Source: Bacillota bacterium (GTDB lineage Bacteria; Bacillota; Clostridia; Peptostreptococcales; Acidaminobacteraceae). Taken from it: a stretch of DNA of 64,000 nt. The position numbers were made by a program, and so were the translations under genes. The notes under the pieces are model-generated. The model did not search any database, had not been told where the DNA came from, and saw only the letters and a program-made list of their open reading frames with translations. Position 1 is the first letter of the stretch, and each line of letters begins with the position of its first letter. The DNA lies in contig JAUMXH010000001.1 of the NCBI GenBank assembly GCA_030529225.1, positions 1 through 64,000 of the forward strand, given 5' to 3'. Positions 23,237 through 44,506 of the stretch are shown here, piece by piece.

Positions 23237-25135
23237 ATGAGTAATATAATAGTAGGAACTGCGGGGCACATCGATCACGGCAAGTCGACCCTGATCAAAC
23301 GGCTCAGCCACATCGACCCCGACAGGCTAAAGGAAGAAAAAAAGCGAGGCATTACCATAGAGCTCGGCTTCGCCTATTTTGATTTGCCTAACGGCAAGCG
23401 AGTCGGTATCGTGGATGTTCCGGGGCATGAAAAATTCATTAAGCACATGCTCGCCGGGGCGGGAGGAATCGACCTCGTACTTTTGGTGGTCGCTGCGGAC
23501 GAATGCATCATGCCGCAAACAAGGGAACACCTCGATATTTTGGGACTGCTCGGAATCGAGAAAGGAATCATTTGCCTGACCAAGTGCGACATGGTTGACG
23601 CGGAATGGAAGGAAATGGTGAAGATGGAGATTCGCGAGGAGCTCGACAAGAGCTTTCTCAAGGATGCGAGCCTCATCGAAATCTCCCTTGATGACGAGGC
23701 GGGAATCGAGGCGCTCAAGGAAGAAATCGAGAGGCTGGCTTCCGATTTAAAACCTCGAAATGCAAACGGTTCTCCCAGACTTTCGGTCGACCGGGTCTTT
23801 TCCATCACCGGATTCGGAACCGTTGTTACAGGAACCCTTCTTGAGGGTAAAATCTCTGTTGGAGACAGGCTGGACTTGTATCCGAAATCCTTGGAGGCGA
23901 GAATCAGAAACATCCAGGTCCATTCGGAGGATGTGAAGGTCGCGTACGCAGGGCAAAGGGTCGCGATCAATATCGCCAACCTGTCGAAGGATGAAATCGA
24001 AAGAGGGGACGTCCTCGCCGAGAGCGGTACGATGAAACCGGCCTTTATCATCGACGCGACTGTCAGCCTGCTCGAGAATTCCAAGAGGGAACTGCATAAT
24101 TGGGCGCGCGTCCGCCTGTATACCGGGGCAAAGGAGGTGCTCGCGCGAGTGGTTCTTCTGGATCGGGAGACCTTGAAGCCGGGAGAGTCCGCCCTCGTAC
24201 AGTTTCGCTTGGAAGACAAGGTAGTGGTAAAATACAATGACAGGTTTGTGATTCGCTTTTACTCTCCGCTGGAGACCATAGGCGGGGGGACGGTGCTGGA
24301 TTCCAACGCGAGAAAGCACAAGCGCTTTCATGACGAGGTCATTCAGGATTTGATCAGCAAAAATTCAGGGGACGAGGGCATGGTCCTTGAGGACATCATT
24401 TTCAAAGAGTCCGAAAAACTTTTAAGCTTTGAGTACCTGCTCGAAAAGACCGGATTTGACAAGGAGAAATTGCATGCCCTGCTCGAGTCGCTGATTCACG
24501 AGAAAACCGTTCTGCTCTTGGATGGAAGGTATTATTTCCACAACGCCTTCCTCGACGGGAAGAACGATGAACTCTTTGAATACTTGCATCAGTTTTATCA
24601 GAAGAATCCGCTGAAACTCGGTATTGCCAAGGACGAAATCAGGAGTCGTCTCTTCGGGAACATGAAGGCAAAGCTCTTCGACGAGCTTCTGGCCCGAATC
24701 TTTGCCTTTGAAAAGGTCAAGGAGCAGGACGGTCAAATTATGACCGTGGACAGGCGGATCGTGTACGATGCAAAACAGGAAAAAATCAAGGACGCTCTGC
24801 TCAAGTATTATCGGGAGGCGGGATATGGCCCCGAGAACCTGAATCTCGTCGAAGAGGAGCTCGGCATCAAAAAAGCCGACAAGGCGGTCTACGAAAGTTT
24901 GGTGAGCGCCGGGGAACTCGTCCGTCTGAACGAGGCGGTGAACCTGAGCCGGCAGCACTTTGAGGCGGCGAGGGGAAGCCTGCTCGCCGAGTTGGAAAAG
25001 AATGGGGAGATTTCGCTGGCAACTTACCGAGACCTGCTCGGCACTTCCCGAAAAATAGCCGTCGCTCTCTTGGATTATTTTGATAAGGTCGGCTTGACCA
25101 GAAGGGTGGACGATATTAGAAAATTAGCAAAATAA
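23237..25135 (+). CDS. selB: Selenocysteine-specific translation elongation factor SelB
   Basis: GTPase of 632 residues that delivers Sec-tRNA to UGA codons at SECIS elements. The G domain starts [17 protein letters not shown], continues with [10 protein letters not shown] and DVPGHEKF, and has TKCD as the guanine motif. Domains II and III follow, then a C-terminal region (about 370-632) of winged-helix repeats that binds the SECIS hairpin. The length is typical. It sits directly after selA in an operon. No selenoprotein gene was recognised in the window. Confidence 0.95.
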
Positions 25136-27601: not shown

Positions 27602-27624
27602 AATCGTGAACGATTCTTTTTAGG

Positions 27625-27653
27625 AAAAGTCATCTGACAGGATGGCTTTTTTT
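27625..27653 (+). terminator. Intrinsic terminator after the flavodoxin gene
   Basis: An AAAGTCATC / GATGGCTTT stem (one G-U pair) with a TGACAG loop and a seven-T tail. Confidence 0.85.
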
Positions 27654-27779
27654 ATATCATGGTAATGGCAAAATTGCCGATAAAATACAGGGAAACTGTG
27701 CGTTAGAATGCGAGATCGATTGAAAAATATTATTTACATGTTAAAAATGACAGGAAACTTATGGATTTTTTAGCTGAAA

Positions 27780-27864: not shown

Positions 27865-28851
27865 ATGAAGAAAAAAACAGGACTTGTAAGCATTATATTG
27901 TTTGTAGCTTTGCTGATATCGGGAAGCTTGAGTGCGGACATATCTAAGTGGGCCAGGGACGCGGTGTTTCGCATGCACTCACTGGAGCTGATTCCGAAGC
28001 GCATCGATACGGTAGACAGCATGCAAAAGGCGATTACCAGGGAGGAGTTCTCCGAGTTCCTGTTTAATTATTACTCTTATATGACCGGAAACACCGAGAA
28101 GGATTTCATTCAGAAGGGAATCTTTCAAGATACGAAGAATCCAAAAGTGGAGGCCCTGTTTAAGCTCGGAGTGGTCAACGGGATATCCAAAACCGCCTTC
28201 GGACCGGACAAGAAGATCAGTAGGGAAGAGATGGCTACCATGTTTATGAGGTTGATGCGAATGCTCGATTTGGATCTCAAAGAAGGGTCGGCTCAAACAT
28301 TTTCGGACCATCAGACGATTTCCGCCTGGGCGCGGGAGGGGGTTTACTTCTGTAAGGAGAACGCTCTGATCGGAGGAAGGGAGAACAATCGCTTCGACCC
28401 GAAGGCGAACAGCACGGTGCAGGAAGTTGCAAGCATCATCGACCGGGCTTGCAGATACAGGGAAGAGGCTCGAACACGAAACACGAATACGACCGATTTT
28501 AACGGCTTCGCGATTCCGAAAACCAACACATCGGGAATTCGCTTTTCATCGAATGTGCAAGAGGGGCTTGCCCTCCGCGCGGTGCTCGGAAGTTTTGAAC
28601 AATCGAAGAACAAAAGCATAGAAGAGCAGCTGGATGATCTCTACGTCGCGTTTAGGGATCAAATTTCCAATCAAGACCTCCTCCTTTTGACCGACTTGGC
28701 AAGGAAGGAGTGGTCGGTGACGGACCGAAGCTACCCTTACGGGATCACCGAATATGTGAAAGACGGAAAGCGCACGCGGGAAAGACCGGAGCGGAAGCCG
28801 TTCCTGAAAATAGACTACATGGCTCTGATGTATGTAGAGCTGTATCGGTAA
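27865..28851 (+). CDS. S-layer homology domain protein (small)
   Basis: 328 residues, exported. A signal peptide (about 1-24, ending SLSA) is followed by three SLH-like units (about 28-85, 88-140 and 145-195) with family hallmarks such as FGPDKKISREEMATMFMRLMRML and AREGVYFCKENALIGG. The C-terminal 130 residues are unassigned. SLH triads bind secondary cell-wall polymer, usually pyruvylated. The ATG at 27865 has GGGAG six bases upstream; the in-frame ATG at 27841 has none. It is the first gene of a run of six envelope genes with gaps below 35 bases. Confidence 0.85.
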   Translation: MKKKTGLVSIILFVALLISGSLSADISKWARDAVFRMHSLELIPKRIDTVDSMQKAITREEFSEFLFNYYSYMTGNTEKDFIQKGIFQDTKNPKVEALFKLGVVNGISKTAFGPDKKISREEMATMFMRLMRMLDLDLKEGSAQTFSDHQTISAWAREGVYFCKENALIGGRENNRFDPKANSTVQEVASIIDRACRYREEARTRNTNTTDFNGFAIPKTNTSGIRFSSNVQEGLALRAVLGSFEQSKNKSIEEQLDDLYVAFRDQISNQDLLLLTDLARKEWSVTDRSYPYGITEYVKDGKRTRERPERKPFLKIDYMALMYVELYR

Positions 28852-28869
28852 AAGAATCAAAAAGAAAGC

Positions 28870-31800
28870 ATGAGTAGGAAGAAAACAATGAAGAGATGGA
28901 ATAGACGGATATCAATGTTGCTCGCGATTGCGATGCTGTGGACCAATACCCTTATCTACGCGCCGCAGCCCGTACATGCCGACAAGAACGGAAGGATGAT
29001 TATAGAGGAGATTTACTTCACCGAAAAACACGAGGATCCGCAGAACCCGTTTAACGTGACCGGTGGGGAAATTTCCTTCCTTGGACACAATTTGGACGCG
29101 AGCAGGATGCTGTATGCGAAGAAGACGACGACCGGATTTTTCCCGTTTCCGCAAAATCCCGAGAATCAGGATAATGACTTTTTTCTGAAGATTATTCTTT
29201 CAGCCGAGGAGGCCCGGGATTTTAAAGGGGAGATTTTGGTTCACGGGGACGGGGTCAACCGCAAGTTTCAGTTTCGAACCGAGAACATTCCCTATATCAA
29301 GAGTTCCGATAAAAAGTATGTCGATTACAGTGATGCCGGAGCGGGCGGGGAACTTACGCTCGATATTTCCAACAACACCCTGCCAAGGCCGACCTTAAAA
29401 TTCGGCTACGGAAGCAGCGGAACCAACGACACGCCGATCCCGTATCAGGGACAGCCTTCGCTTACCTTCAGGCCCAAGCCGTCTCCTCAGTACGGAAGCC
29501 ACTCGATTTCCATTACGGAGAGCGTCAGCGATCAGGAGGGCTTGGCTCCCGGGGAGAAGGTGAAACTCTTTACCGAGTACAAGTACGACAAGATCTTTGT
29601 GTTGACCGAAGAGCTCGATTTAAGGGTTCTTACGCTCTATCCGAACGTTGCAACAAAGGGTTCCTACATCAATTTGGAATCGGACAAAATCCGGGATTCG
29701 ATTGAGTACAGGGTCTACTTTTTGGACAACGGCCCGAACGGTGAGGTTTTGAGCGACCATAAGATGTATACCGTCAAAAGGGATGACTTTTTTAAGGAAA
29801 ACGGCAAGCAGAAAATGCGCGTCATGGTTCCGGACAACGAAGACTTCAAGACCGGAGAGAAGAAGGTCGTGGTCACCAGGGTCGTCAACGGTGAAATCGT
29901 TGCCAGAAGCAAGGAAGAGTTGCTTTTGAATGTGATAGACGGAAAATTCGCTCCCGTCATCAATGAAATCAAGCCCGACACCGGCTCGGGCGAGGGCTCG
30001 GATGCTCAGATCATCGGAAAAAATATATTGATTCCGGACATTCCTTCTTTGATCGGTGAGGTCCCGGAGCCAAGCTTCGTGAACCCGGGCATCGAACAGG
30101 TTTTGACTTACGATGTGGGAAATGCGAACTTAACCTTCAACGGAAAGCGCGTCACCGCATTGACTCGTAAAATTTCCGCGACCGTCGGCAGACAGGCGAC
30201 CATCAAAGGCTTTGACGTACAGGGGCTCGATGACTTTATCGACATTCGTATCGATTCAATCGGTAACGTCGCGCCGATCACCGTAGATGTCCTGGTCGAG
30301 ACCGTGACTACAATTCGAACCGCGGACGGAAAGAGCTACGAGTTCAATCAATCCGCTACGAAGAAGAATGCCTATACCTTTATCAACAGTTCTCAGACAC
30401 CGAAGATCGAGGCGGTTCATCCGAAAGAGATCCAAGTGATTCCGAACGGCTTAAAGTACAACCCGAAGGAAGAGACCTTGATTTCGATTGAGGGGGACGG
30501 TTTTTTTGTGAACAAATTTTCGGATGACAATGCGACTGTAAGAATAAACTATCCAAGAATCTTTATCCAGAACGGGGAGAAGGTCGGCGAACAGCCCTAT
30601 ATCGCGAAGTTTGATAAGAGCGGAGCGCCTTCGGGAAAGGCCTTTGTTAAGGTGCTGAAAAACGGACGGGAAAGTTTTCTGCTCAAGGACCCGAATCAGG
30701 GTGAGACCGAGGAGAACAAGGTGCTGGTCGGAATGGAGATTTTGAATGACAAGGATGAGCCGGTCAGCGGAAGCAAGGACAATGAAATCGGGAAACGAAT
30801 CGTTCTGTATATTCCGAAACAGCTGGAAGTGGTAAAACTCGGCGGCAAGTATATCCAAATCATTAACCCGAAGAGAAACTCCGACGCTTACGGAACTCAT
30901 GGCATCAGCACAAAGGAAGTCATTTTCTTCCAAACTGCCAAGAATGAGCCCGTCATTTCGAGTGTGGTTCCGAACATCGTTCCGATTACCGGAAAACAAA
31001 AGGTCCTTGTCACGGGCGCGAACTTTGACGAGGGGGTCAAGGTCTATATTGACGGTAAGCTTGTGGAAGGCGTGAAGAGAAGTTCCAATGAAGCCGGAAA
31101 CGAGATGGTTCTCACCTTTGAAGCTCCGCCGGGCAGAGAGGGAACGACTCAAATTCAAGTTGTCAACCCGGATGGGGGAACGGATGTCAAAGAGTTTCAT
31201 TATATCAAGTCTCTGGGACAGGATCCCAAGCTTCTTTCGATCAGCCCCGACAAGGGTTCCGCGAACACCTTGGTCATTGCTAACGGTGATAATTTCGTCA
31301 GGCCGAATCCGACCGCGAAAGGGACCGTCGGTTTGGATGCCTATAAACTGATCGGAAGCAGAATCTTTGTAGACGGTAGAGACGTCAATGAGTACAAGAC
31401 CAATTCGGACGGCGGCATCCTCTTTGCTCCTTATTCGAGTCCCGCCAAAGAAGTCGTTTTGAAGGCGGAGAAGAACAAGGCCGAGCTCAGCAAGCTGCAT
31501 GAAAACGCGGTTTTGGAAGACGCGACCTTTGGCCGTTTTTACAACTTTACCAAGGATGACAAGGGAAATCCGGCCCTCTTCGACGGCGCCGAGATCAAAT
31601 TCCGATTCGAGGCGGAGGGCGCTGATTTGTACGCGATCGATGCCGAGGGAAACAAGATCAAGCCGGTGACGGTCAGTGAAAACAAGATTGTGATAGGGAG
31701 CGGTGCGAGCAAGACCGAAATCCACGTCTCTATGGATACCAATATTTTGAGGCTTTCCAAGGACAAGAACGGAAGCATCCGTGCGGATTTGGCCGACTAT

Positions 31801-34800
31801 GCCGAGGCAATCACCTTAAAAGAGACGAACAATGATATTTTCTATACCCTAAGAAAGGAAATCAACCAAGAGATCGTCTTGAGTTCAGGCGGAACCAAGT
31901 ATACGATTTTCTCGGAGCTGATCGATAAGAACGGCGGACAAACTTACGACAACGCCGAGCTGAAGGCCCGCGACAAGAACGGAAACACTTATAAAATCAC
32001 CGTTACAGCGGACGGCTTCCGCTTTAAGGATTTAGCGTTCCAAATGCTCAACCCTTACGTTGAAAAGGATGGCGTCATCGTCGGTCAAAAAGTGAAAATC
32101 ATCTCAAAAAAAATGCTTCAATTTGTGGTTCCGACCCTCTATTCCGGCACCGGATTCAAAGAGGTCAAAGTCGTGAACCCGGACACCAAGAGCGATAAAC
32201 TGGAAAAGGGATTTTACTACTACCACCAGCCCGCGACCCATCCGATCATCAGCAGTATCATTCCGAATCGAGGCGCGGTCAGCGGGGGCTATCTGGTGAC
32301 CTTGACCGGACATGACTTCTTTGAATCGACGAGCGTCTTCTTTGATGGGATACCGGTATCTAAGGAAGGCAAGAGCGTCAGCATAGACGGCAAGAGCATG
32401 CAGGTCAGGGTTCCCGCGTACCCGATCGACATCAGCACGGTCTTTGGTGTGGGCGAAATCACGGTTCCGGTGAGTGTGGTGAATACGGATGGAGCGAGTT
32501 ACAGTGTAGAGAAAGGCTTCACCTATGTCAAGCCTGCTTCCGCACCGAAAATCAAGGAGATTAAACTGGATAACGGAAGCTCCACCGGCGGCGAGCTTGT
32601 CGTAATCACGGGAGAAGACTTCCGATTTTTCGAGCCTTACATCAATATGCCGGGCGGTACTTACGAGTACGAGCCGGGCAGGGACTTGTATACCGACCTG
32701 AATGCCCACCTTTCTACCAACCCGCCAAAATGGGACGACCTTTTGGCAAAGGCCAGAAAGTACAAAGAGCTCGTCAACGGCGTCGAGCACGAGGTCGACC
32801 TTTGGGAGGGAAAACAGTTTGAAGGAGGCAAGTCTTACTACGGGTATACCGAGTACTTTGATTCTAAGATATTGCCGATCGTTTTCTTCGGTAACCAAAA
32901 GGCGAAAATCGTTGAGTTTGAAACGAACTATTTGAAGGTGTTGACGCCTCCGGGCAAGGGAACGGCGGTCGATGTCAGATTGATCAACAACGATTCGGGT
33001 CTCAGTAACTCGGTGACTTATACCTATTCGAGTACCAATCCGACCATTGATTACATCAATCCATCGAGCGGAGCCCGCGTCGGCAGCGAGATTCGCGAAC
33101 TGATCGGTTCAAATTTCTACAAGTGGCCGATGAAGATTTACAAGAACAGCGATGCGCCTGTCATAGGCGAGATTGTGGAAGCCGACAGGGTGGACACCTT
33201 ACTGCGATTCGGCGAGCTCACCAACCAAACGATCCCGATCGGCTCGGAAAATGACGGAAGAATCAACGCCAATCACGCGGTGGTAAGAATTGAGGGCGGA
33301 CTCAGAGTGTCTTTTGACGGGAAGAAAAAACAGCTCCACGTCTCGATTGAGGAGGGCGGAAGGCTGTACCAAAGAGTGTATGGAAACTTTGAGGGGGACG
33401 AGGTCTTTATCCCTGCAAACCAGCTCAAGGACGATGCCGGAAACTACTATAAACCGTCCGGCTTTGACTACGACAACGACAAGGTTTACAACGAGAAAAA
33501 CTACTACGAACTCATCGGTGTCAAGGTAGATAAGATAGATAAGAGATTGATTGTGTCTCGGGGCTATTCTCCGGAGAACCGTTTGGATACGACCGGAAAA
33601 ATCGTGCTCAAAACCCCGTCCTACTACACGATTGGAACGGTTAAAGTGCACTTTTACAACACCGACGGCGGGACGGCGGAGACCGACTATACCTATTTGA
33701 ACCCCGCTTCCAAGCCGCTGATCATCTCTGCGAAACCGATGGACATCATTCCGAAGAAATCGACCGAGAACGATACCGACGAGGATCAAAGAATGGTGCA
33801 GGCGAGTACCAAGGGCGGAGCCAGGGTTGAGATTGAGGTTATGGACCTCAGGGACGATCCGAAGCTCTTCTTTGGAACCAAGGCCGTCAACATCATTGAA
33901 ATCGTGAATAACAAGGACACTCAGACCATTATTGCCGAGGTGCCTGCGGGCACGGATGCCGAAATCGGGGAGAAAAAACCGATCATCGTGGAGAACAAGG
34001 ATGGCGGAATCGCAATCTCTACCGACAAGAGCAAGCTCGGCAAGGACAAGAGGCTCCTCTTCTTCATTTACAGAAAGCCGCTCAGCGATCCGGTCATCAA
34101 AGAGATTGTTCCGGAAAAAACCTCACAATACGGCGGGCACACGATTGAAGTGAGGGGACAGGATATTCGTAAGAATGCCAGCATCATTCTGGGTTCCAAG
34201 GGAGGAATCCCGGTGAGCCCGACGGAGGTCGATCCGTTTGGACGCTTCTTGAAGTTTGTGATGCCTGCGGGAATCAGACCGGGCCCAATTGATGTGCAAA
34301 TCCAGAACGCCGACTTCGGTTTGGTTACCTTGAAAGACGGCCTGAAGATTATCAGTTATCCGGAGCTGGACAGCGAGGTCAGAGACGGAAAGAACGTTGC
34401 GGAAGTGACGGTGCTCAGCACGGAGGGCGGACAGGTCATCACGCTGAGAGGTAAAAACTTTATGGACGGCGCCAAGGTCTACTTCGGTGGAGACAGGAAA
34501 GAACTCGGATTTCAGGATAAGAACGGCGTCAAGGGATTCTTCAGGGATGACAAGTATTATTTGTTGACCCAAGCCGTGGAGGCAGGCAAGGTGGAATTTG
34601 TGGACTCTCATACCTTGAAGGTGCACACGCCTAAGATGGACAATGAGAAGATTCACAGCATCACGGTGATCAACCCCGACGAGGGTATGAGTGACGGGGA
34701 ACTGCAGATCAAGTATTCGCTTCCGAAGCCGTCGGCTACACACTCTCTGAAGGCGAGCATTGTAAACGACAAGTACATCAAGCTCTACGATTACGTGAGT

Positions 34801-35721
34801 GATAATGTCAAATACTACACAATTTTTGCGTACTTCGGCAACAAGAAGGAGAGCGAACTGAAGAAAAACAATTATACGGATTTTAAAGCGCTTGCAACGA
34901 CGAGCAGGGAGCCGTACAAATTGGATTTCCTAGAGGGCTTTGACAGGACGGAAAGCAAACATTACCTCCACTTCGTGGTGAAGGGAGTCAATGATTTCGG
35001 TTCTTCTTCATGGTCCAATATCGCGACCCTAAAATACCAAGAGTTCAAACAGTTGGAGTTTCCTTCACCGAAAAAGCCGAATGTACCGAAAGACGGGAGC
35101 CGTCCGGCCTTTGAAAAATACGGTAAGCTCACTCTGCAAGGGAAGAAGGGGGAGCTCCTCTTCGACAAGGCGATTGCTGAGAGGACGAGCCTGAAGTTCG
35201 GGTATGAGGAAACGGCGAATGGGAAGCATCTGGACCTGTTGTTCGCCAAAAATGTGATTTTGAACAGCAAGGACCTGGCGATCGAGACCCCGCTCTTCTA
35301 CACAACCTTAAATCCGAATGTATTCGGCGCTTCGGTATTCAACCGTTACCTCGTCGGCACTTCAGCCTACGGGAACCTTGAAATTAAGTGGGAGGAAGAT
35401 TTTAACACCTCCGCGGCGGAGTCCAAACTGAGCGCAACGAACAGGCAACTAAAGACGGTTTCTCCGGTGTTGACAGTGAATGCGAAGGCGAGAACCGCGC
35501 AGGGGGGCAAAGAGATTCCGAAGTTGGATCAGAGCTTCAAGTTTGCGATGAAATTGGATGCTCCCGAAATCGTTTATGACAAGAGTAAAGCCTTGTATCT
35601 ATACAAGTATGACATCAAGCAGGGAACTTGGCGGCAAGTAAACGTTGAGCGTCTGGCAGGGGCAAATTTGTTAAGATTTACTGCGGACGGACCGGCTTAC
35701 TATGTCTTGTGTCAGTTCTAA
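28870..35721 (+). CDS. Giant IPT/TIG-repeat surface protein
   Basis: 2,283 residues, exported. The signal peptide occupies about 1-37 (ending PVHA). About ten Ig-like IPT/TIG modules are recognisable by their P-x-I-x-x-I-x-P...G...V-x-G-x-x-F pattern, starting near residues 361, 511, 694, 786, 1123, 1226, 1390, 1615, 1740 and 1830; for example VVPNIVPITGKQKVLVTGAN and SIIPNRGAVSGGYLVTLTGH. A fibronectin-III-like module lies at about 1950-2060 and a beta-rich C-terminal domain ends in YYVLCQF. No LPXTG motif, transmembrane tail or SLH triad is visible. An alternative ATG at 28888 has a better ribosome site (TAGGAAG). It is probably a fibre or adhesin held by its SLH-bearing neighbours. Confidence 0.85.
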   Translation: MSRKKTMKRWNRRISMLLAIAMLWTNTLIYAPQPVHADKNGRMIIEEIYFTEKHEDPQNPFNVTGGEISFLGHNLDASRMLYAKKTTTGFFPFPQNPENQDNDFFLKIILSAEEARDFKGEILVHGDGVNRKFQFRTENIPYIKSSDKKYVDYSDAGAGGELTLDISNNTLPRPTLKFGYGSSGTNDTPIPYQGQPSLTFRPKPSPQYGSHSISITESVSDQEGLAPGEKVKLFTEYKYDKIFVLTEELDLRVLTLYPNVATKGSYINLESDKIRDSIEYRVYFLDNGPNGEVLSDHKMYTVKRDDFFKENGKQKMRVMVPDNEDFKTGEKKVVVTRVVNGEIVARSKEELLLNVIDGKFAPVINEIKPDTGSGEGSDAQIIGKNILIPDIPSLIGEVPEPSFVNPGIEQVLTYDVGNANLTFNGKRVTALTRKISATVGRQATIKGFDVQGLDDFIDIRIDSIGNVAPITVDVLVETVTTIRTADGKSYEFNQSATKKNAYTFINSSQTPKIEAVHPKEIQVIPNGLKYNPKEETLISIEGDGFFVNKFSDDNATVRINYPRIFIQNGEKVGEQPYIAKFDKSGAPSGKAFVKVLKNGRESFLLKDPNQGETEENKVLVGMEILNDKDEPVSGSKDNEIGKRIVLYIPKQLEVVKLGGKYIQIINPKRNSDAYGTHGISTKEVIFFQTAKNEPVISSVVPNIVPITGKQKVLVTGANFDEGVKVYIDGKLVEGVKRSSNEAGNEMVLTFEAPPGREGTTQIQVVNPDGGTDVKEFHYIKSLGQDPKLLSISPDKGSANTLVIANGDNFVRPNPTAKGTVGLDAYKLIGSRIFVDGRDVNEYKTNSDGGILFAPYSSPAKEVVLKAEKNKAELSKLHENAVLEDATFGRFYNFTKDDKGNPALFDGAEIKFRFEAEGADLYAIDAEGNKIKPVTVSENKIVIGSGASKTEIHVSMDTNILRLSKDKNGSIRADLADYAEAITLKETNNDIFYTLRKEINQEIVLSSGGTKYTIFSELIDKNGGQTYDNAELKARDKNGNTYKITVTADGFRFKDLAFQMLNPYVEKDGVIVGQKVKIISKKMLQFVVPTLYSGTGFKEVKVVNPDTKSDKLEKGFYYYHQPATHPIISSIIPNRGAVSGGYLVTLTGHDFFESTSVFFDGIPVSKEGKSVSIDGKSMQVRVPAYPIDISTVFGVGEITVPVSVVNTDGASYSVEKGFTYVKPASAPKIKEIKLDNGSSTGGELVVITGEDFRFFEPYINMPGGTYEYEPGRDLYTDLNAHLSTNPPKWDDLLAKARKYKELVNGVEHEVDLWEGKQFEGGKSYYGYTEYFDSKILPIVFFGNQKAKIVEFETNYLKVLTPPGKGTAVDVRLINNDSGLSNSVTYTYSSTNPTIDYINPSSGARVGSEIRELIGSNFYKWPMKIYKNSDAPVIGEIVEADRVDTLLRFGELTNQTIPIGSENDGRINANHAVVRIEGGLRVSFDGKKKQLHVSIEEGGRLYQRVYGNFEGDEVFIPANQLKDDAGNYYKPSGFDYDNDKVYNEKNYYELIGVKVDKIDKRLIVSRGYSPENRLDTTGKIVLKTPSYYTIGTVKVHFYNTDGGTAETDYTYLNPASKPLIISAKPMDIIPKKSTENDTDEDQRMVQASTKGGARVEIEVMDLRDDPKLFFGTKAVNIIEIVNNKDTQTIIAEVPAGTDAEIGEKKPIIVENKDGGIAISTDKSKLGKDKRLLFFIYRKPLSDPVIKEIVPEKTSQYGGHTIEVRGQDIRKNASIILGSKGGIPVSPTEVDPFGRFLKFVMPAGIRPGPIDVQIQNADFGLVTLKDGLKIISYPELDSEVRDGKNVAEVTVLSTEGGQVITLRGKNFMDGAKVYFGGDRKELGFQDKNGVKGFFRDDKYYLLTQAVEAGKVEFVDSHTLKVHTPKMDNEKIHSITVINPDEGMSDGELQIKYSLPKPSATHSLKASIVNDKYIKLYDYVSDNVKYYTIFAYFGNKKESELKKNNYTDFKALATTSREPYKLDFLEGFDRTESKHYLHFVVKGVNDFGSSSWSNIATLKYQEFKQLEFPSPKKPNVPKDGSRPAFEKYGKLTLQGKKGELLFDKAIAERTSLKFGYEETANGKHLDLLFAKNVILNSKDLAIETPLFYTTLNPNVFGASVFNRYLVGTSAYGNLEIKWEEDFNTSAAESKLSATNRQLKTVSPVLTVNAKARTAQGGKEIPKLDQSFKFAMKLDAPEIVYDKSKALYLYKYDIKQGTWRQVNVERLAGANLLRFTADGPAYYVLCQF

Positions 35722-35741
35722 GTACTGTCTTGGAGGAAGAA

Positions 35742-38732
35742 ATGAAAAAAATACTATCCTTATTGCTTGCGATCGTGATGGTCGGGACTGTCCTTACGGC
35801 AGACCCGGTCTACACGGATCCGTATGATGAAATACAGGAAACCTTTACCTATACTTCGTTTGAACATAAGTTGCCTGAGACAATCAATAAAATCGACGGG
35901 ACGAGCGACTTTAGAACAGTCGTGGCCAATTATGATTTTCGCGACCTCACGGCCTTCTATAAAAAGGCTGCTACCGAGCTTGCGGTTCTGGGAATTGTAA
36001 GCGGGAGCGGTAGGAACGTGTTTTCCGGAAATGCGGAGCTGAGTAACATCCAGACCGTCACCATGCTCGTTCGATTTCTGGGCGCGGAAAAGCAAGTGAA
36101 GGACAGGGTGAAGGCGGAAAATCCGGATATCCCGAACAGCAAACTGAACGGTTACTATCAGGACGCCTTCATGGACTATGCGCTGACGAACGGAATCATT
36201 GAAAGCAAGGAAATCAAGTATCACGATAAGGTGAGCCGTGAAAACATGGCTCTTTGGATGGTGAATGCTACCAAAATCAGTTCCGAGAACAGTCTGCCTC
36301 CGGTGATTTCGGATAAGAATCGAATCCAACCGAAAGCGGAACAGGCCATTTACGCGGTTCTGGATCACGGCCTCATGAGCACCTTTGCCGATGGGACATT
36401 CAAGCCTCGGAATCTTGTGAAACGAGAGCATTTTGCGAAGATTCTGTCGGCTACCCTGAACAAATTTCCGCAAAATTTCGGCGTCGAAAAGAAATTTGCA
36501 ATCGTCGTCGGCGTGCAGCCGGAGAGCGTGGAAGGAAACCGCTATACCAATTTGATAGTAAAGAACGAGGAGAGCGAGCTTGAGATCATCCGCTACGGAA
36601 CCCTCGCAAATGAGACGGAGATCGGTTTTCCGGTCCTGAACGGAAATTTGATGTATCCCGGGGCGATTCAAAAGGGGATGGAGCTAGAGCTTCTTTTAAA
36701 AGACGGCAAAATTATCCTGGCCACCGTTCTTGATCAGAATCAAGTGAAGCACGCGATTGTGCAAAAACAGCTTTCCGAACCCGGCGTCGATGTCCTGCAA
36801 GGCGTGGTGAAGTCGAATACGAGCGAGAAACGCTCCGCCGAGCAGGAAAAATGGATTCGCACCAGGCTCAGGGTGGAATTGGACGATGACAGGGTCGTGG
36901 ACTTTCTGCAGGAAAGGAACCAAATCACCAACATCGACAACGATGTCCTCGTTCTTGGAAAAAACGGATTTATTCCGATCGAAGCGCTCAGAAAGAACGA
37001 TACGGTCACGGCCTATGTCAAAAACGACAAGGTCTTGTTTCTGAAACTCGGGACGGAGCCTCTGCAGAACATTACGGGCAGTATTCGTCAGATAGAAGTT
37101 CCGAAACCGAAGTCGGCGGAGGAGCAGGAAGAAAGCAAGCCGTTTATTAAAGTCTACACGGACGACGGGAGGCTCGTGGACCTTCCGGTCAATGATCAGA
37201 CTGTATATTATATCAATCAGTACGGAGCAAAGTTGGAAGACTTGAAGCTTGGGGCGAGGGTGAATGTCGTCGTCCTGAGGGGATATGCAAGCTTTGTCAA
37301 CGCCTCTTCGTATCAGCCGCCGAGCGGATACATTCCCAAGGAAGGAAAGATTGCCTATGTGACTGTCAAGGAACTTGGAGACAAGTATTTTACGGTGCAG
37401 GAAAACGGGGATAAGATTGCGGTCTTCGACGGAGTGACCAAAATTACCAAACAGGGCAAGGCGATTCGCTTTCAGAGCCTGAAGTCCGGAGACAAAGTGA
37501 AACTCTATTTTGACGACATTTACAGCAAGGCGCCGAGCAGGATCGAAGTCAGCGAAGCTGCGACTAAGGTACAGGGTATTCTGAAAGGAAAGGTGCTCGA
37601 CTACAGCAATGCGACGGGATTTCTGTCGGTCTTGGATTTGATGCAGTTGGATAACGCGAGCTGGGTGAAGATGCCGGATCATATGAAAAAGTATAAGCTC
37701 GATGAAGATGTTCGCATCTATGCGAATGGACGGATTCTTTCTCGGGAGAGCTTGAATCCCGCCGTCGGAGAGAATATTTACCTCGTTTTGAGAGACGGAG
37801 AGCTCAGTCAGGCCGTCTTTTCTGCCGGCCGCGAAAGAAATTTCAGCAACACCGTCAAATCCTACGACAATGTGTTGAATCAGTTGCAGTTAGCGAACGG
37901 CAGGAATCTGAGATTTGGAGAGGACACCATCTTTGTCGAGGACAACAGATTGGTCGGAAAGGATAGCTTGGAACAGGGAAAGGCCCTGCAAATATTGAGC
38001 AACGAAATCGCCGGCGATGAGTACGCGAAACTTGTGAGCATCTTGGATCAGAATGAAGATTTCTTCGACAGAATCTATCTTGCGAGCATCGATGAAGTGG
38101 ACGAATATACCTTGACCATTCGTGACTATACGCAGGTCAGAGATATGAAATTCTCTCCGGTCAAATCGTCGGGAAAGCAGATCGACCTGTATAACGAGTC
38201 GAGTATTTATGCGATAGACAGCAAAAAACTCCTGTCAGCGCAGGACTTGTTCCACGGCGATTATTACCGGAAAAGATACAAGGAAAAGAATGACAAGAGG
38301 TCCATCAGCAACAAGGGGCTCGAATACAAGCGATACTACGGCATCTTCTTTGTCGATGCCCAAGATAAGTTAATCGCGGCCAAGATCAGGCACAAGGGGA
38401 TTTTTGAAGACGATTTGTTCGATGACAGGCTGAAAAAAGAGTCGGATGTACCGAAGGAGATCGACAAGGTAAGGCAGAGACTCAGTTTCACGAGGGGGAC
38501 AATCGCGGAATTCAACACCGACTGGCAGAGAATTTCCTTGAACAATTCCTTCCAATTCTTTGAATTTGACAAGAAATGGAAGCCGAATCGAGAAGCGACC
38601 GTCATCAGCTTGCGAAATGCTTTGATTATAAAAAATGAAAAAGTGATAGATTATGAGGAATTACGGGTAGATGATAAAGTATATGCCATACGGGATGACG
38701 AAAAGGTTCTGTTCATGTATGTGGAGGAATAA
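35742..38732 (+). CDS. Large SLH protein with tandem beta-modules
   Basis: 996 residues, exported. A signal peptide (about 1-20) is followed by three degenerate SLH units (about 55-250), including FADGTFKPRNLVKREHFAKI. The remainder (about 255-996) is made of roughly seven related beta-rich modules of about 85-130 residues. Each opens with G-x-I/V-x-x and closes with a pattern like G-D-x-V...V-x-F, e.g. LRKNDTVTAYVKNDKVLFLK and LRVDDKVYAIRDDEKVLFM. GGAGGAAGAA precedes the ATG at 35742; an upstream in-frame start would overlap the IPT gene. The next gene starts directly after its stop codon. Confidence 0.82.
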   Translation: MKKILSLLLAIVMVGTVLTADPVYTDPYDEIQETFTYTSFEHKLPETINKIDGTSDFRTVVANYDFRDLTAFYKKAATELAVLGIVSGSGRNVFSGNAELSNIQTVTMLVRFLGAEKQVKDRVKAENPDIPNSKLNGYYQDAFMDYALTNGIIESKEIKYHDKVSRENMALWMVNATKISSENSLPPVISDKNRIQPKAEQAIYAVLDHGLMSTFADGTFKPRNLVKREHFAKILSATLNKFPQNFGVEKKFAIVVGVQPESVEGNRYTNLIVKNEESELEIIRYGTLANETEIGFPVLNGNLMYPGAIQKGMELELLLKDGKIILATVLDQNQVKHAIVQKQLSEPGVDVLQGVVKSNTSEKRSAEQEKWIRTRLRVELDDDRVVDFLQERNQITNIDNDVLVLGKNGFIPIEALRKNDTVTAYVKNDKVLFLKLGTEPLQNITGSIRQIEVPKPKSAEEQEESKPFIKVYTDDGRLVDLPVNDQTVYYINQYGAKLEDLKLGARVNVVVLRGYASFVNASSYQPPSGYIPKEGKIAYVTVKELGDKYFTVQENGDKIAVFDGVTKITKQGKAIRFQSLKSGDKVKLYFDDIYSKAPSRIEVSEAATKVQGILKGKVLDYSNATGFLSVLDLMQLDNASWVKMPDHMKKYKLDEDVRIYANGRILSRESLNPAVGENIYLVLRDGELSQAVFSAGRERNFSNTVKSYDNVLNQLQLANGRNLRFGEDTIFVEDNRLVGKDSLEQGKALQILSNEIAGDEYAKLVSILDQNEDFFDRIYLASIDEVDEYTLTIRDYTQVRDMKFSPVKSSGKQIDLYNESSIYAIDSKKLLSAQDLFHGDYYRKRYKEKNDKRSISNKGLEYKRYYGIFFVDAQDKLIAAKIRHKGIFEDDLFDDRLKKESDVPKEIDKVRQRLSFTRGTIAEFNTDWQRISLNNSFQFFEFDKKWKPNREATVISLRNALIIKNEKVIDYEELRVDDKVYAIRDDEKVLFMYVEE

Positions 38733-40346
38733 ATGCGAAAGTCTTGGAAGAAATATCTGATTGCCCTGAGCGTACTCACATATTTTGTGTTGGGCTCGCT
38801 CCGGGCCGATGAGTCGCTTCTCTTCGGGGGAATCAAGAGGGAGGAGCTCGCCAATAAAAAGGGAACCTTTGTCTTTGAAGAACTTTGTTTTATGACCGGC
38901 GAACCTGTTCTGTTAAGGGGCACGGTAGTCATTCCGCCGAAGAATCCGGAGAAGGACGAGTACAGCGTGACTTTAAAGTATGCCCTTGCCAGTGCCGATA
39001 AAAAAATCAAGCTCGACCGTTCGGTTACGTATGACGTTGTAAACAAGAAGAATCCGGAGCTGAATCAAGTCATCAGTAATTGGACCGTTAAGTCGGGGGG
39101 CATTAAGGAAACAGTGTCGATTGAAGGCGAGGTCTTTACCTTGAGCTCTTACGAGTTTGACAATTCGATGATCAGTGACCTCAAGCCGGCGGGTCAGTTT
39201 GACAACGCGAGCTTACACTATAAAAAAGTATTTCATACCGCGGAGCCTCACTTGGATGAAGGAAAAAAAATCAGCATCACCGGAGACAGTCAGACCTTCG
39301 CATCTTACAAGAACTTTTGGAGCGGCGTGAACAGCACGAAGATCAACCAAAAGATCGAGTTTGAAACCCTGCCGGGTTCCACCCTGCAGCGAAAGTACGG
39401 ACCGAAGGACGGAAAGAAGCCGGAGGAGAAGAACACCAACTGGCAGGCCGATGTGATTTACAGCTTTTCGGAGAAAGTACAGTCTAAATTCGACTATGTG
39501 AAACACGGCGCCAAGAATACCAGTTTCCGAAAAGGGCTTTTAAAATCGACCAATTATGAGTATAATGTAAGTTATGACTATAACTTGCCGTCTCAAACGG
39601 CCACGGCCGGAGAGAAGGAAAACGGGCAAGGAGAGAAGGCGCCGGACACTGCTAAAAGAAAGACCGGGAAGATTGATTTGGATGCCTACAGGTATGACAG
39701 TTCAACGATGCTGCCGATTCCAAAGTACAACGACGTGGCTGCCCACTGGGCGGAGGAGTCGATCTTTAAGATGGCGAGCTTGGGCGGCTTTGACTTGGAT
39801 TCGAGTTTCTTTCCCGACGTCACGATTACCAGGGCGCAGTTTGCCAGGGCCATCCTGAACGCGATTGATTCGGTCGAGCCGGAGAGCCCTGAAAAACGAA
39901 AGACCGAATTTATAAAGTCGCAGAGAAAGGGCGCCAAGGAGCTTCCTTTCGACGATGTCCGAAGGGACAGCGAGTACTACGTTTTTGTGGAAGCCGTGAA
40001 CGAGAGAGAGATGATGTTCGGAGAGGGAGACAGGCAATTCTTGCCGAATCGGCCTCTGACCAGGGAAGAGGCGATCACGATCATGATCCGCTCCCTGGGA
40101 GTGGATGATGTCGCTCCTTCGCTCCCGTTTGAGACTGTGTTTTTGGATGATGACAGGATTGCCGGATGGGCCAAACCGTCCATCTATCAAGCGGTGGACT
40201 TCGGCATCATCGACGGCTATGAGGACGGGACCATCAAGCCCAAGAAGTTGATGACGAGGGCGGAGGCCAGCCAAATGCTGGTCGGATATATCGAACACAT
40301 GAGGAAGGAGATTCCGAAAGATTACAAGAGACTCCTTCAGGAGTAA
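38733..40346 (+). CDS. SLH protein with N-terminal beta domain
   Basis: 537 residues, exported. A signal peptide (about 1-27, ending LRA) is followed by an unassigned beta-rich region of about 280 residues, a Gly/Glu/Lys linker (near 290-310) and three C-terminal SLH units (about 325-530). Good SLH matches include AAHWAEESIFKMASLGGF, FLPNRPLTREEAITIMIRSL and DGYEDGTIKPKKLMTRAEAS. The SLH triad is at the C-terminus, the reverse of the preceding gene. GGAGG lies five bases before the ATG, which follows the previous stop codon without a gap. Confidence 0.87.
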   Translation: MRKSWKKYLIALSVLTYFVLGSLRADESLLFGGIKREELANKKGTFVFEELCFMTGEPVLLRGTVVIPPKNPEKDEYSVTLKYALASADKKIKLDRSVTYDVVNKKNPELNQVISNWTVKSGGIKETVSIEGEVFTLSSYEFDNSMISDLKPAGQFDNASLHYKKVFHTAEPHLDEGKKISITGDSQTFASYKNFWSGVNSTKINQKIEFETLPGSTLQRKYGPKDGKKPEEKNTNWQADVIYSFSEKVQSKFDYVKHGAKNTSFRKGLLKSTNYEYNVSYDYNLPSQTATAGEKENGQGEKAPDTAKRKTGKIDLDAYRYDSSTMLPIPKYNDVAAHWAEESIFKMASLGGFDLDSSFFPDVTITRAQFARAILNAIDSVEPESPEKRKTEFIKSQRKGAKELPFDDVRRDSEYYVFVEAVNEREMMFGEGDRQFLPNRPLTREEAITIMIRSLGVDDVAPSLPFETVFLDDDRIAGWAKPSIYQAVDFGIIDGYEDGTIKPKKLMTRAEASQMLVGYIEHMRKEIPKDYKRLLQE

Positions 40347-40402
40347 AGGGATAAAAACGGAACATTTGTGATTGGATGAAGAATTGTGAAAAGGGGGACG
40401 TT

Positions 40403-41779
40403 TTGGAATTTAAGTGGAAAAAGGTATTATGTTTGCTACTGACGGTAGCTTTTCTTGCGACTCCGGTCAGCGCACTGACGGAGAGGCAATCGAGCTGGTT
40501 TAAGATGATGGAAAACGATTTCGTGGCAAAAGGAAGGGGAATCGACCAAGATGGATATGCAGGATTCCAGTGTGTGGACCTTGTAAATAACTATGTTACG
40601 AATTTGTTTCCGGATGCGAATCTTGGAAATAAGGCATATTCCAAGAGCATCGGGTTCGGGAATGCCAGGGAGCTCTACGCGGCAGCGAGTGACGCCTATT
40701 TTGAGAAAATTCCCTTTGTAGACGGCATGGTGCCAAGGAGCGGCGACATCGCTGTTTGGGGGAAGGCCGGCACCGGTTTTACATCGAGCGGTCATGTAGG
40801 AATTGTATATTATGCGGATAAAAGCAATTTGGTGATGCTCCACCAGGACGGTTACGGCAGACCCTACGTGTTTAAAGAAGAGAGCGGTTACAACAGACTC
40901 TACAACTACAATGGCGCACTGATCGGATTTTTAAGACCGAGAGACTCAAAAATTAAAGAAATAAACCCGTCTATGCCAATCGAAAAGTATGAAGTGGAAA
41001 TGGCACAGAACGGTCAAATAAAAGTGGATTTAAATGATGAAAAATATAGGGCGCTGGTGGATCTGAAACTGATCAGCCCGAGCCAAACGCAGAGTGCGGC
41101 GGATGCTTTGGACAGATTGCAAGCCGTGGTTCTGGTAACAAGACTGAGCGGAAACGAACAGTTGGTAAAAAAAATCAGCGAAGAGGACTTGATTCGCGGA
41201 CTGGCCAATATCAGTGACTTAGATGAGATTCCGAATTGGGCGAGACCGTATGTCGCCTTTGCAATCAATGAAGGAATCATTTCCGGCGTTTCCAAGACGG
41301 CGGACAACAAGATTGTCTTCGGGCCGAATGAACCGATTTCGGGAGCGGTCTTTTCCACCATCCTGTTTCGAAGTTTGGGTTACGAGGTGAATGATTTAGG
41401 CAAGGCAAATGAAATTTACAAGAACATGATTTCGTACTACAACGCTTCGGAACTGAATTACGAGAACATTGTTGTGAATCCGAAAGCGGCGGCGACCTCT
41501 TCGCAAAAGCCGGAGGAGCTGAGAGCCGTTTCAAAAACCTTGGAGGAACTTGCTCCCGCAGCGAAAAAGGGAGAGGTTAATTTGCAAGACACCGCCATTG
41601 ACCTGGTAGCAAAAGACAGGGTGAGCAGAAACGATGCGGCAAAGATCATGTACGATGTACTCGCGTATGCCAATGCGGTAGAGAACGGCAAGTTGAGCAA
41701 GCTCACCTTGAAAGAGTATTTGGTACAGAAGCAAGTGTTTGAAAAAGACTTGTTAATGAAGGCCCTCAAACAAAAGTAG
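40403..41779 (+). CDS. CHAP-domain cell-wall hydrolase fused to SLH-like repeats
   Basis: 458 residues, exported. A signal peptide (about 1-25) is followed by a CHAP amidase/endopeptidase domain (about 30-180) with catalytic Cys57 in FQCVDLV and His131 in SSGHVGIV, and degenerate SLH-like units from about 205 to 440. It probably cuts peptidoglycan peptide bonds while bound to wall polymer. TTG at 40403 is preferred as start because AAGGGGGA precedes it; the in-frame ATG at 40376 has no ribosome site and would add nine polar residues before the signal peptide. ctpA-like follows. Confidence 0.83.
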   Translation: MEFKWKKVLCLLLTVAFLATPVSALTERQSSWFKMMENDFVAKGRGIDQDGYAGFQCVDLVNNYVTNLFPDANLGNKAYSKSIGFGNARELYAAASDAYFEKIPFVDGMVPRSGDIAVWGKAGTGFTSSGHVGIVYYADKSNLVMLHQDGYGRPYVFKEESGYNRLYNYNGALIGFLRPRDSKIKEINPSMPIEKYEVEMAQNGQIKVDLNDEKYRALVDLKLISPSQTQSAADALDRLQAVVLVTRLSGNEQLVKKISEEDLIRGLANISDLDEIPNWARPYVAFAINEGIISGVSKTADNKIVFGPNEPISGAVFSTILFRSLGYEVNDLGKANEIYKNMISYYNASELNYENIVVNPKAAATSSQKPEELRAVSKTLEELAPAAKKGEVNLQDTAIDLVAKDRVSRNDAAKIMYDVLAYANAVENGKLSKLTLKEYLVQKQVFEKDLLMKALKQK

Positions 41780-41804
41780 ACCGTCCTGAGCAAAAGGGGG
41801 ACAG

Positions 41805-43169
41805 ATGAAACGAATACTCCTGCTGTTCCTTCTACTCCTATGCACCGGCTTTTCGACGCTGAGCGCGGATGAGTTGGGGAACAGAACCGATTTTTTGATT
41901 GACGTCTCGAGCGAGATCGACTACATCCTCGAGCATTACTACGGGGACATCAATGAGCAGACCCTTCGAAAAGGGCTGCTCGACGGGATGCACAAGGCGA
42001 TCGACCCTTGGACCAATTCTTATACCGAGGCGGAATACAAGATATTTGTAGACAATCTCAGCGGTGAATTTGTCGGCTTGGGAATCTATGTGGAAAAGTC
42101 CGGCGACCACGTGCTGATTACCGAGGTCATTGAAGGTGGCGCGGCGGAGAAGGCCGGGCTGAAATCCGGAGACAGAATCTATGCGGTCGATCAAAAATCG
42201 ATTGCAACGCTAGATATTGATCAAGTGGTCTCTCTTTTGAGCGGAAAGAAGGATAGCCCTGTCAGTCTTCAGATTATGAGGAAGGGGAAGGTTGTCAAGG
42301 AGACCCTGCAAATTTTCAGGAAGTCCTTTGTCATCAAGTCGGTCAAGCACTACTTGCGTGATGGAATCGATGTGATTGAAATCGATCAATTCGGTGACAG
42401 AACCTACAGCGAATTTTTGGACGCGATGCAAAAGGTGGATCCCGGGAAGGGTTTCCTGATCGATCTCAGAGACAATCCCGGCGGCTATCTGGACTCGGCC
42501 GTACAAATTGCGGATGAATTGCTTCCCAAGGATTTGCTCATTACCGTCGTGCAGGATAAGTATAACAAGAACTTTATGAACTCGCAGAAAGAGGGGCGAA
42601 AAGAAAAACTCGTCGTCCTGGTCAACGAGAAGACGGCATCGGCGAGCGAAATTTTGGCCTCGGCCCTGCAGGACCACAATCGGGCCGTTCTGGTGGGCGA
42701 TAAAACGTTCGGAAAGGGCCTGATACAGCAGTTGGGTCGCTTTGGTGGCAGGTACATCAAGCTTACCATCGGCGAGTACAAGAGTCCGAAGGGTTCCGTC
42801 ATAAACGGAGTCGGTGTTCTTCCCGATTATAGGGTCAGTCCGGAGCAGGAACTCTTTGCCCTTCACTCCGAATTCAAACCTCTTCTATCGTATACTGAAT
42901 GGAAGTATGGAGACACAAATGACGAGTTGATCGGAATCAAGCAGAGGCTTCGCTATCTCGGGAACCGCTTGCAGATGAATCCGCACTTTGATCGGGAACT
43001 CTTACAGGTCGTGAATCAATTTAAGAAGGAAAGCGCCTTAAAAGAGGACGGAAAAATTGAGGAAACCTTTAAGCTCGCCCTCGATCGGGAAGTCAAGAGA
43101 AAGGCCGCGGAAACGGCAAAGGAAAAGCAGTTGAAGAAGGCGATTGAGCTGATGAAAGCTACGAACTGA
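41805..43169 (+). CDS. C-terminal processing protease (S41 family) with PDZ and wall-binding-like tail
   Basis: 454 residues, exported by an N-terminal signal (about 1-22). The PDZ domain (about 85-165) has GLGIYVEKSGDHVLITEV. The S41 catalytic domain has Ser279 (TASASE) and Lys304 (TFGKG), the classic Ser-Lys dyad spaced by 25 residues. The tail (about 370-440) resembles a PG_binding_1 fold, with IKQRLRYLGNRL and FDRELLQVVNQFKKES. Such proteases cut exported proteins or activate sporulation and wall enzymes. As the last gene of the envelope cluster it may process its products. A GGGGGA ribosome site precedes the ATG. Confidence 0.93.
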   Translation: MKRILLLFLLLLCTGFSTLSADELGNRTDFLIDVSSEIDYILEHYYGDINEQTLRKGLLDGMHKAIDPWTNSYTEAEYKIFVDNLSGEFVGLGIYVEKSGDHVLITEVIEGGAAEKAGLKSGDRIYAVDQKSIATLDIDQVVSLLSGKKDSPVSLQIMRKGKVVKETLQIFRKSFVIKSVKHYLRDGIDVIEIDQFGDRTYSEFLDAMQKVDPGKGFLIDLRDNPGGYLDSAVQIADELLPKDLLITVVQDKYNKNFMNSQKEGRKEKLVVLVNEKTASASEILASALQDHNRAVLVGDKTFGKGLIQQLGRFGGRYIKLTIGEYKSPKGSVINGVGVLPDYRVSPEQELFALHSEFKPLLSYTEWKYGDTNDELIGIKQRLRYLGNRLQMNPHFDRELLQVVNQFKKESALKEDGKIEETFKLALDREVKRKAAETAKEKQLKKAIELMKATN

Positions 43170-43214: not shown

Positions 43215-43260
43215 AAATCCCTCCCGCTTTCGGAAAGAAAGCTCGGAGGGATTTATTTTT
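43215..43260. terminator. Intrinsic terminator of the surface-protein cluster
   Basis: The outer 10-bp stem AAATCCCTCC / GGAGGGATTT encloses a TTTC/GAAA inner hairpin and is followed by ATTTTT. The A-rich left flank lets it serve the convergent MFS gene too. Confidence 0.85.
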
Positions 43261-43270
43261 AGTCTGTCTG

Positions 43271-44506
43271 TTATGACAGAGATTGTTTTGATTTTTTCAT
43301 TATCACCGCTACAAAGAGGGATGCACCCGCAAAAATCAGAATGGAGAGGTAGGAGAGTTGGAAAGACCCTCCCGATTGTTCCCTCAGACAGTGAGAGAGC
43401 GTCGGTCCCACCGTTGCGGCTACAATCAACTGTAGGTTGATGATGCTGAAGTTGCTCGGGTAGTACTTTGGGCCGTAGGTATCCTTGATGACGCAAGAGG
43501 CCAGGGCAGGGGAACATCCGTAGCTGATTCCGCAAGAGAGAAGTCCCAGTATGCCTAAAATTGTAAGGCCGGTATAGTAGCCCGCGAGGAGGAGGATGCC
43601 GGAAAGGAGTAAAAAGGCAACGGTTGAAAAGACCGCGAAGCTCTCTCCCTTACTGTCATAGACCTTGCCGATGAAGATCCTTCCGCCGCCGTTCGCGACC
43701 GAAACCATCAGGCCTATGATGGCCGAAGCTCCGAAACTTTGAGCGATCTGGCTCGCGCTTCCGATGATCATCAGTCCGCAAGAACAAATCAGAATGTTCC
43801 AGATGATAAACCACGCAAAGAATCCGGTTTTGAGCATTTGCTTAGAATTGTAGTCCTTGTGGGCAACTTGCTTTTGAGTGAGTTTAGCCTTGTCAAAATC
43901 CGCCTTGTCCTGTTTTACCCCCATAATGTACGCGCATATGATCAGAGGAGGGAGGAAGAGGAAGGACAAAATAAAGAAGGTGGTGCCGATTCCATAGACC
44001 TTTTCGATCGCCGATGCCAGAGATCCCAGCACGATACCGCCGAAACCGAATCCGAGCATCAGGACGCCCGATGCCAAACCTACCTTATCCGGGAAGTGCT
44101 CCATCACCCCGCTCAGGATTCCGTTGTAACCGAAGCCGACCCCGGTTCCGCAGAGGACTCCGTAAAAGAGATACATCTTGAGAGCCGGAGAGAGGGTTTC
44201 CGCCGACAGGGTCGACATCAGGACCAAGCCAACAAAGACGAGGACCGAAGAGATCAGTATGCGGTATCTGGAACTGATGATGCGTGCGGAAAACCCGCTG
44301 ATCAGACCTCCCACGCAGAAGAAGATGATGGAAATCGTGAAGGTCAGAGACAACTGTTGGTCGGTAATCACCGGAATGAGCTCCTTGAGCGGAGACTTAA
44401 AAATGGACCAGGCGTAAATCATCCCCAAGAATAAGAGGGCGATGGCGCCTGAGATCAAATAGGTGTACTTTGATAAGCCTTTCTTGTTTGCCTTTTCATG
44501 TGTCAT
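43271..44506 (-). CDS. OFA-type MFS transporter (oxalate/formate antiporter family)
   Basis: Major facilitator of 411 residues with about twelve hydrophobic helices. Family hallmarks include GMIYAWSIFKSPL in TM1 and GTGVGFGYNGILS plus FPDKVGLASGVLMLGFGFGG between TM4 and TM5. The family exchanges or takes up small monocarboxylates and dicarboxylates; the substrate here is not identifiable. GGGAG precedes the ATG by nine bases. It lies 70 bases downstream of the lipoprotein hydrolase gene on the same strand; a 23-base near-perfect inverted repeat lies in that gap. Confidence 0.87.
   Translation of the reverse strand: MTHEKANKKGLSKYTYLISGAIALLFLGMIYAWSIFKSPLKELIPVITDQQLSLTFTISIIFFCVGGLISGFSARIISSRYRILISSVLVFVGLVLMSTLSAETLSPALKMYLFYGVLCGTGVGFGYNGILSGVMEHFPDKVGLASGVLMLGFGFGGIVLGSLASAIEKVYGIGTTFFILSFLFLPPLIICAYIMGVKQDKADFDKAKLTQKQVAHKDYNSKQMLKTGFFAWFIIWNILICSCGLMIIGSASQIAQSFGASAIIGLMVSVANGGGRIFIGKVYDSKGESFAVFSTVAFLLLSGILLLAGYYTGLTILGILGLLSCGISYGCSPALASCVIKDTYGPKYYPSNFSIINLQLIVAATVGPTLSHCLREQSGGSFQLSYLSILIFAGASLFVAVIMKKSKQSLS

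Follow-up and report, generated by a model that had tools for sequence, protein, structure and literature searches.

Is a tight run of genes for exported envelope proteins one dedicated surface system, and what would such a system build? The question is raised by positions 27865-43169 of a 64,000-nucleotide stretch of DNA (the window, by which we mean the whole stretch analysed), which a sequence-only reading had taken for a six-gene assembly system for a surface fibre or a surface layer.

The exported cluster and its host genome

Six tightly packed plus-strand genes, all for exported proteins, were found at 27865-43169, bounded by strong hairpin terminators. The gene starts given below were chosen by Shine-Dalgarno sequence.

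27621..27654, plus strand: intrinsic terminator of the preceding flavodoxin-like gene, a 15-pair hairpin then a T run (z -4.3); upstream border
27865..28851, plus strand: p1, exported SLH protein (Pfam SLH 2.3e-14, three repeats)
28870..35721, plus strand: TIG, giant exported IPT/TIG (Ig-like) protein of 2,283 residues (Pfam TIG 4.7e-42, six stretches)
35742..38732, plus strand: p3, N-terminal SLH triad then a string of small OB-like beta barrels (SLH 1.8e-9)
38733..40346, plus strand: p4, long-stranded beta domain (~41-327) then three SLH repeats (~332-520; SLH 1.2e-23)
40403..41779, plus strand: CHAP-SLH putative wall hydrolase (CHAP 5.6e-10, SLH 5e-6), TTG start
41805..43169, plus strand: S41/PDZ carboxy-terminal processing protease, exported (Peptidase_S41 3.8e-41, PDZ 5.5e-13)
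43215..43254, no strand assigned: intrinsic terminator ending the cluster (-24.2 kcal/mol, z -4.7), common to the convergent gene 43271-44506

With these starts the intergenic gaps within the cluster were 0 to 56 bases, and 6/6 products begin with a hydrophobic segment resembling a signal peptide. The sequence-only reading was accurate on these points: it had described six consecutive one-strand genes with gaps below 60 bases, signal peptides on all six products, a combination of SLH anchors with an Ig-like giant, and a single strong closing terminator. Its count of four SLH triads held in part. Triads were found in p1 and p4, and that of p3 is divergent in sequence and clear in the structural model; the CHAP protein has one clear repeat only. 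A simple scan returned promoter and terminator-like counts no higher than in shuffled sequence, and no promoter stood above chance. The co-directional exported cluster is probably one transcript. Upstream in the window, at 23237-25135, lies a gene for SelB, the selenocysteine-specific elongation factor, and the organism therefore probably makes selenoproteins.

The window's genome is a 1.74 Mb draft, 95% complete. It holds 62 SLH repeat matches, so that SLH genes per se are unremarkable here. The SLH ligand is produced by enzymes of the polysaccharide pyruvyl transferase type, and a PF04230 homologue is encoded in this genome (G000:C23:2445-3251, 2.6e-36); a pyruvylated polymer is predicted from the gene. 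With a signal peptide and an SLH triad each, p4, p3 and p1 are predicted to be SLH-anchored surface proteins. Neither Omp85 (PF01103) nor the SpoIVA ATPase had a match in the 95% complete genome, which fits a non-sporulating monoderm. A sporulation role of the locus was rejected, since a genome without SpoIVA carries it and it is hence not confined to spore formers.

Conservation of the TIG-p3-p4 core

A gene order conserved in no relative had been set beforehand as a refutation of the sequence-only reading, and the outcome went in favour of that reading. TIG, p3 and p4 occurred in this order in dozens of genomes, separated by a median of 13 and 15.5 bases. Each of the dozen or so families sampled in the taxonomic order showed it, as did contigs of Fusibacter, Thermotalea, Anoxynatronum, Lutispora, Tissierella, Peptoclostridium and Tepidanaerobacter. 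Among 118 related genomes at the order level, full-length matches to p4 were found in 54, to TIG in 53 and to both in 48; nearly all of the regions compared had the trio in this order, usually followed by the S41 protease and by pyrG (CTP synthase). At the class level (391 genomes), p4 was matched over its full length in roughly 60 genomes across many families and TIG in 23. The class-level p4 loci without TIG retained p3-p4-S41, and two genomes of this kind we take to be C. thermocellum ATCC 27405 and R. cellulolyticum H10. TIG was missing while p3-p4 persisted in several families, and is thus not essential to p3-p4.

In an even sample of 299 genomes from the whole phylum, 59 had p4 and 48 had TIG, and TIG never occurred without p4 (both, 48; p4 only, 11; TIG only, 0; neither, 240). 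The Fisher test, which ignores shared descent, gave p about 3e-45 for this co-occurrence. Loci picked by p4 alone outside the class carried TIG and p3 in 19/20 cases and the full trio order in at least 18/20; the 19 include L141, where TIG and p3 are present and a longer ORF on the opposite strand hides p4 from the ORF list. The one locus of the twenty that lacks TIG, L139, reads p3-p4-S41. Across distinct p4 loci, p3 was nearby in 86/88, one of the two exceptions being a contig end. TIG was nearby in 67/88, which is not a frequency because the loci were sampled partly by TIG presence; the 299-genome phylum sample provides the unbiased figure. In three genomes (G024, G034 and G055) the distance from TIG to p3-p4 is 15 to about 130 kb (L053/L054, L071/L072 and L045/L055), with all three genes retained.

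Divergence within the trio was also correlated over 30 loci, in a phylogeny-dependent measure. For p3 and p4, r was 0.97, and 0.96 with pyrG held constant; for TIG and p4, r was 0.80, and 0.74 after pyrG correction. This speaks for contact of p3 with p4 above all, and more weakly for contact with TIG. Synteny and co-inheritance of the trio can come from shared vertical descent.

The other three genes were not conserved to this extent. Among the related loci compared, p1 homologues were found only at L033, L034, L053, L060, L061 and L071, which belong to the window's own family. In many other families the gene directly upstream of TIG encodes, in place of p1, a bigger Ig-like protein that matches Big_5, Big_2 or TIG (420-1440 residues; 23 of these proteins form one similarity group). 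Such an Ig-like gene lies directly 5' of TIG at L041-L044, L065-L067, L069, L070 and L073-L078, and also at L082, L087, L090, L119 and L120. The CHAP-SLH protein contains the catalytic-type motifs QCVDL and GHVGIV. No counterpart of this hydrolase was found at any related locus examined, so that at this locus it was seen in the window's genome only, and its gene seems to have been inserted recently into an otherwise conserved operon.

The product of the sixth gene matched TIGR00225 'prc' above the cut-off (8.6e-80). With its S41 and PDZ domains and its candidate catalytic residues, Ser in TASASE and Lys in FGKG, it is predicted to be a C-terminal processing protease. It follows p4 in 39 loci and is a common neighbour in part of the phylum only. 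The protease is missing beside the trio in many lineages and is therefore no fixed component. Families that lost TIG (L139 in genome G687, and L103-L118) kept p3-p4 with the S41 protease directly behind, and TIG-bearing families outside the class were mostly without an S41 neighbour. What remains of the proposed six-gene dedicated system is thus the TIG-p3-p4 core, with p1 restricted to one family, CHAP-SLH found here only and S41 optional.

Architecture of the core proteins

TIG is one copy per genome, and its relatives can be aligned over 2,000 residues across the phylum, with size and full-length colinearity conserved. The family has a median of 2,094 residues, with IPT/TIG domains and, in most members tested, a C-terminal fn3 domain. 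The window's TIG also matched Pfam TIG_SUH (1.1e-5) and, twice, the NCBIfam model CoaZ_rpt_PGGG (3.7e-19). No carbohydrate-binding module was found in TIG, and neither an SLH repeat (0/82) nor a C-terminal membrane segment (0/82) was found in its family.

The AlphaFold model of p3 (pLDDT 79.5) consists of an SLH triad (Z 15.8 to 3pyw) and about eight small barrels. In the predicted structure the barrels resembled the OB barrel of CusF (Z 10.3), and the top Foldseek match to the array was ribosomal protein S1 (E 5.1e-9). Relatives of p3 are either long and SLH-bearing or short (about 550 residues) and mostly devoid of SLH.

Three C-terminal SLH repeats were present in 95/95 relatives of p4, which have 480-552 residues. 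The predicted structure of p4 (pLDDT 79.5, 20 sequences) places its SLH part at Z 16.7 to 3pyw and shows the N-terminal domain as some eleven long strands arranged in an antiparallel meander. This beta domain is not covered by any Pfam model, and the solved structures related to p4 by sequence cover SLH parts only. The beta-domain part matched a single plasmid-set record, NZ_CP154629.1 (L144) of Acetoanaerobium noterae, where the p4-like gene is unannotated. This record is chromosome-sized (2.6 Mb). Viral proteins compared by fold matched the SLH part only; on the plasmid set and these viral folds, a phage or plasmid origin was set aside.

The nearest non-SLH structures to the p4 beta domain were porins (NanC, Z 8.2 over 182 residues). 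OmpM joins SLH to an outer-membrane barrel (PMC10628300), and the long-stranded meander with porins as its best non-SLH neighbours would suit a relic of an OmpM-like outer-membrane tether, inherited from a diderm ancestor and now placed on a monoderm wall. A Z of about 8 is, however, a level possible from common arrangement alone, and the Foldseek probability was low. In p4 the candidate barrel comes first and is followed by three SLH repeats, whereas OmpM has the reversed order and one SLH. The more hydrophobic face of the p4 strands is up to about 20% charged, a composition that is not lipid-facing, and Omp85 was found in 0/21 p4-carrying genomes (the window's and 20 others), with controls positive in 7/14. 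We regard descent from such a tether as very improbable.

Candidate roles and known systems

We give about even chances to the reading that the products of the core, TIG, p3 and p4, make up a single complex on the cell surface of monoderm anaerobes that use SLH. SLH is always present in p4, sometimes in p3 and never in TIG, and the simplest model therefore has p4 as the anchor, p3 as the bridge and TIG as the projecting part. We infer for the trio a physical complex with the following partners and role. As the universal anchor, p4 would bind the pyruvylated secondary wall polymer through its three SLH repeats, and its beta domain would hold partner proteins. The bead string of OB-like barrels in p3 may act as a spacer or second contact, with an SLH triad of its own in the long forms. 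TIG would be a fixed-length Ig-like chain that lacks an anchor and is held by p4 and p3 as a projecting stalk or outer scaffold; the fibre of the sequence-only reading is possible for a TIG-containing complex. The S41 protease would probably trim or turn over the trio products, and in this genome local opening of the wall may be the task of the CHAP enzyme. Because the trio is single-copy, fixed in length and deeply conserved, a structural or housekeeping role at the surface is favoured for it over that of a variable adhesin.

A substrate- or cell-binding adhesin fibre for biofilm or attachment, with TIG displayed by p4 and p3, is nevertheless suggested by the chain of TIG and fn3 domains and by the further large Ig-like protein (Big_5, Big_2, TIG) directly upstream in many relatives. 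Adhesins vary in repeat number and presence, whereas TIG is colinear over its full length and single-copy across the phylum; together with the lack of any carbohydrate-binding module found in TIG, this makes an adhesin unlikely in our judgement. S-layer proteins are commonly Ig-rich and SLH-bound, and here a giant exported Ig-rich protein adjoins SLH anchors, as would be expected if TIG (or p3) were a crystalline S-layer subunit and p4 and p3 its wall anchors. The proteins of the TIG family have no wall-anchoring domain of their own, and the gene is single-copy with a conserved size, unlike typical fast-changing S-layer genes. In genome G449, which we take to be C. thermocellum, the known S-layer protein Cthe_2348 is apparently encoded elsewhere, by a position estimated from gene numbering. 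The 'surface-layer' of the sequence-only reading, understood as a crystalline lattice, is thus disfavoured, and we hold a lattice subunit to be a rather poor prospect.

The genes of the trio might instead be separate envelope genes that form no complex and are kept together by a stable neighbourhood near pyrG, which often follows the cluster, so that the whole region is syntenic. Against this, the median gap from the trio to pyrG is 222 bases and those within the trio are 13-16, more than tenfold smaller. TIG occurs in the phylum sample only where p4 does, genomes in which the trio is split still have all of it, and divergence within the trio is correlated beyond that of pyrG. A mere neighbourhood appears to us a little less credible even than a lattice subunit.

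Returning to a single surface complex, we consider that the trio probably builds an overlooked standard part of the cell surface in this anaerobic Gram-positive phylum. A more specific version, which we advance tentatively and with its two parts taken jointly, is that the trio could be surface machinery ancestral to the phylum (a non-lattice outer scaffold of defined length with p4 as dedicated anchor and a general envelope function) and that the p4 beta domain may lack close relatives among solved structures. The usual view of SLH proteins is one of loose, fast-changing surface decorations; the trio is instead single-copy, with order and length kept. Its spread over a phylum with biotechnologically used anaerobes points to a standard, unstudied clostridial envelope element. 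The p4 family could serve as a marker, and as a test case for how SLH-type walls hold large unanchored proteins.

A search of open papers aimed at the locus or its parts found none that describes the locus, in line with the sequence-only reading, which had not recognised it as a described locus; this is weak evidence, most subscription papers lying outside the scope of the search. NCBIfam NF058597, 'choice-of-anchor Z repeating domain', covers part of the repeat type through its two matches in TIG (3.7e-19). It names a repeat and does not name the TIG protein, the operon or a function. Three known systems resemble the trio in part. Sap and EA1 of Bacillus anthracis and SpaA of Paenibacillus alvei share the SLH triad fold, predicted here in p4 and long p3, and the pyruvyl transferase homologue; the present system differs from them in being a single-copy set of three different proteins, with a giant partner without SLH and no lattice evidence. 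OlpA, OlpB and SdbA of Clostridium thermocellum are alike in that a wall anchor displays another protein non-covalently. In contrast to these cellulosome anchors, p3, p4 and TIG had no cohesin or dockerin match at the thresholds used. The OmpM/SlpA connectors of diderm Terrabacteria, like p4, are exported proteins in which SLH and a long-stranded beta domain occur together, but p4 has the reversed order, a triple SLH part, no Omp85 machinery and strands unsuited in composition to facing lipid. The locus appears to join known kinds of parts in a conserved, undescribed assembly.
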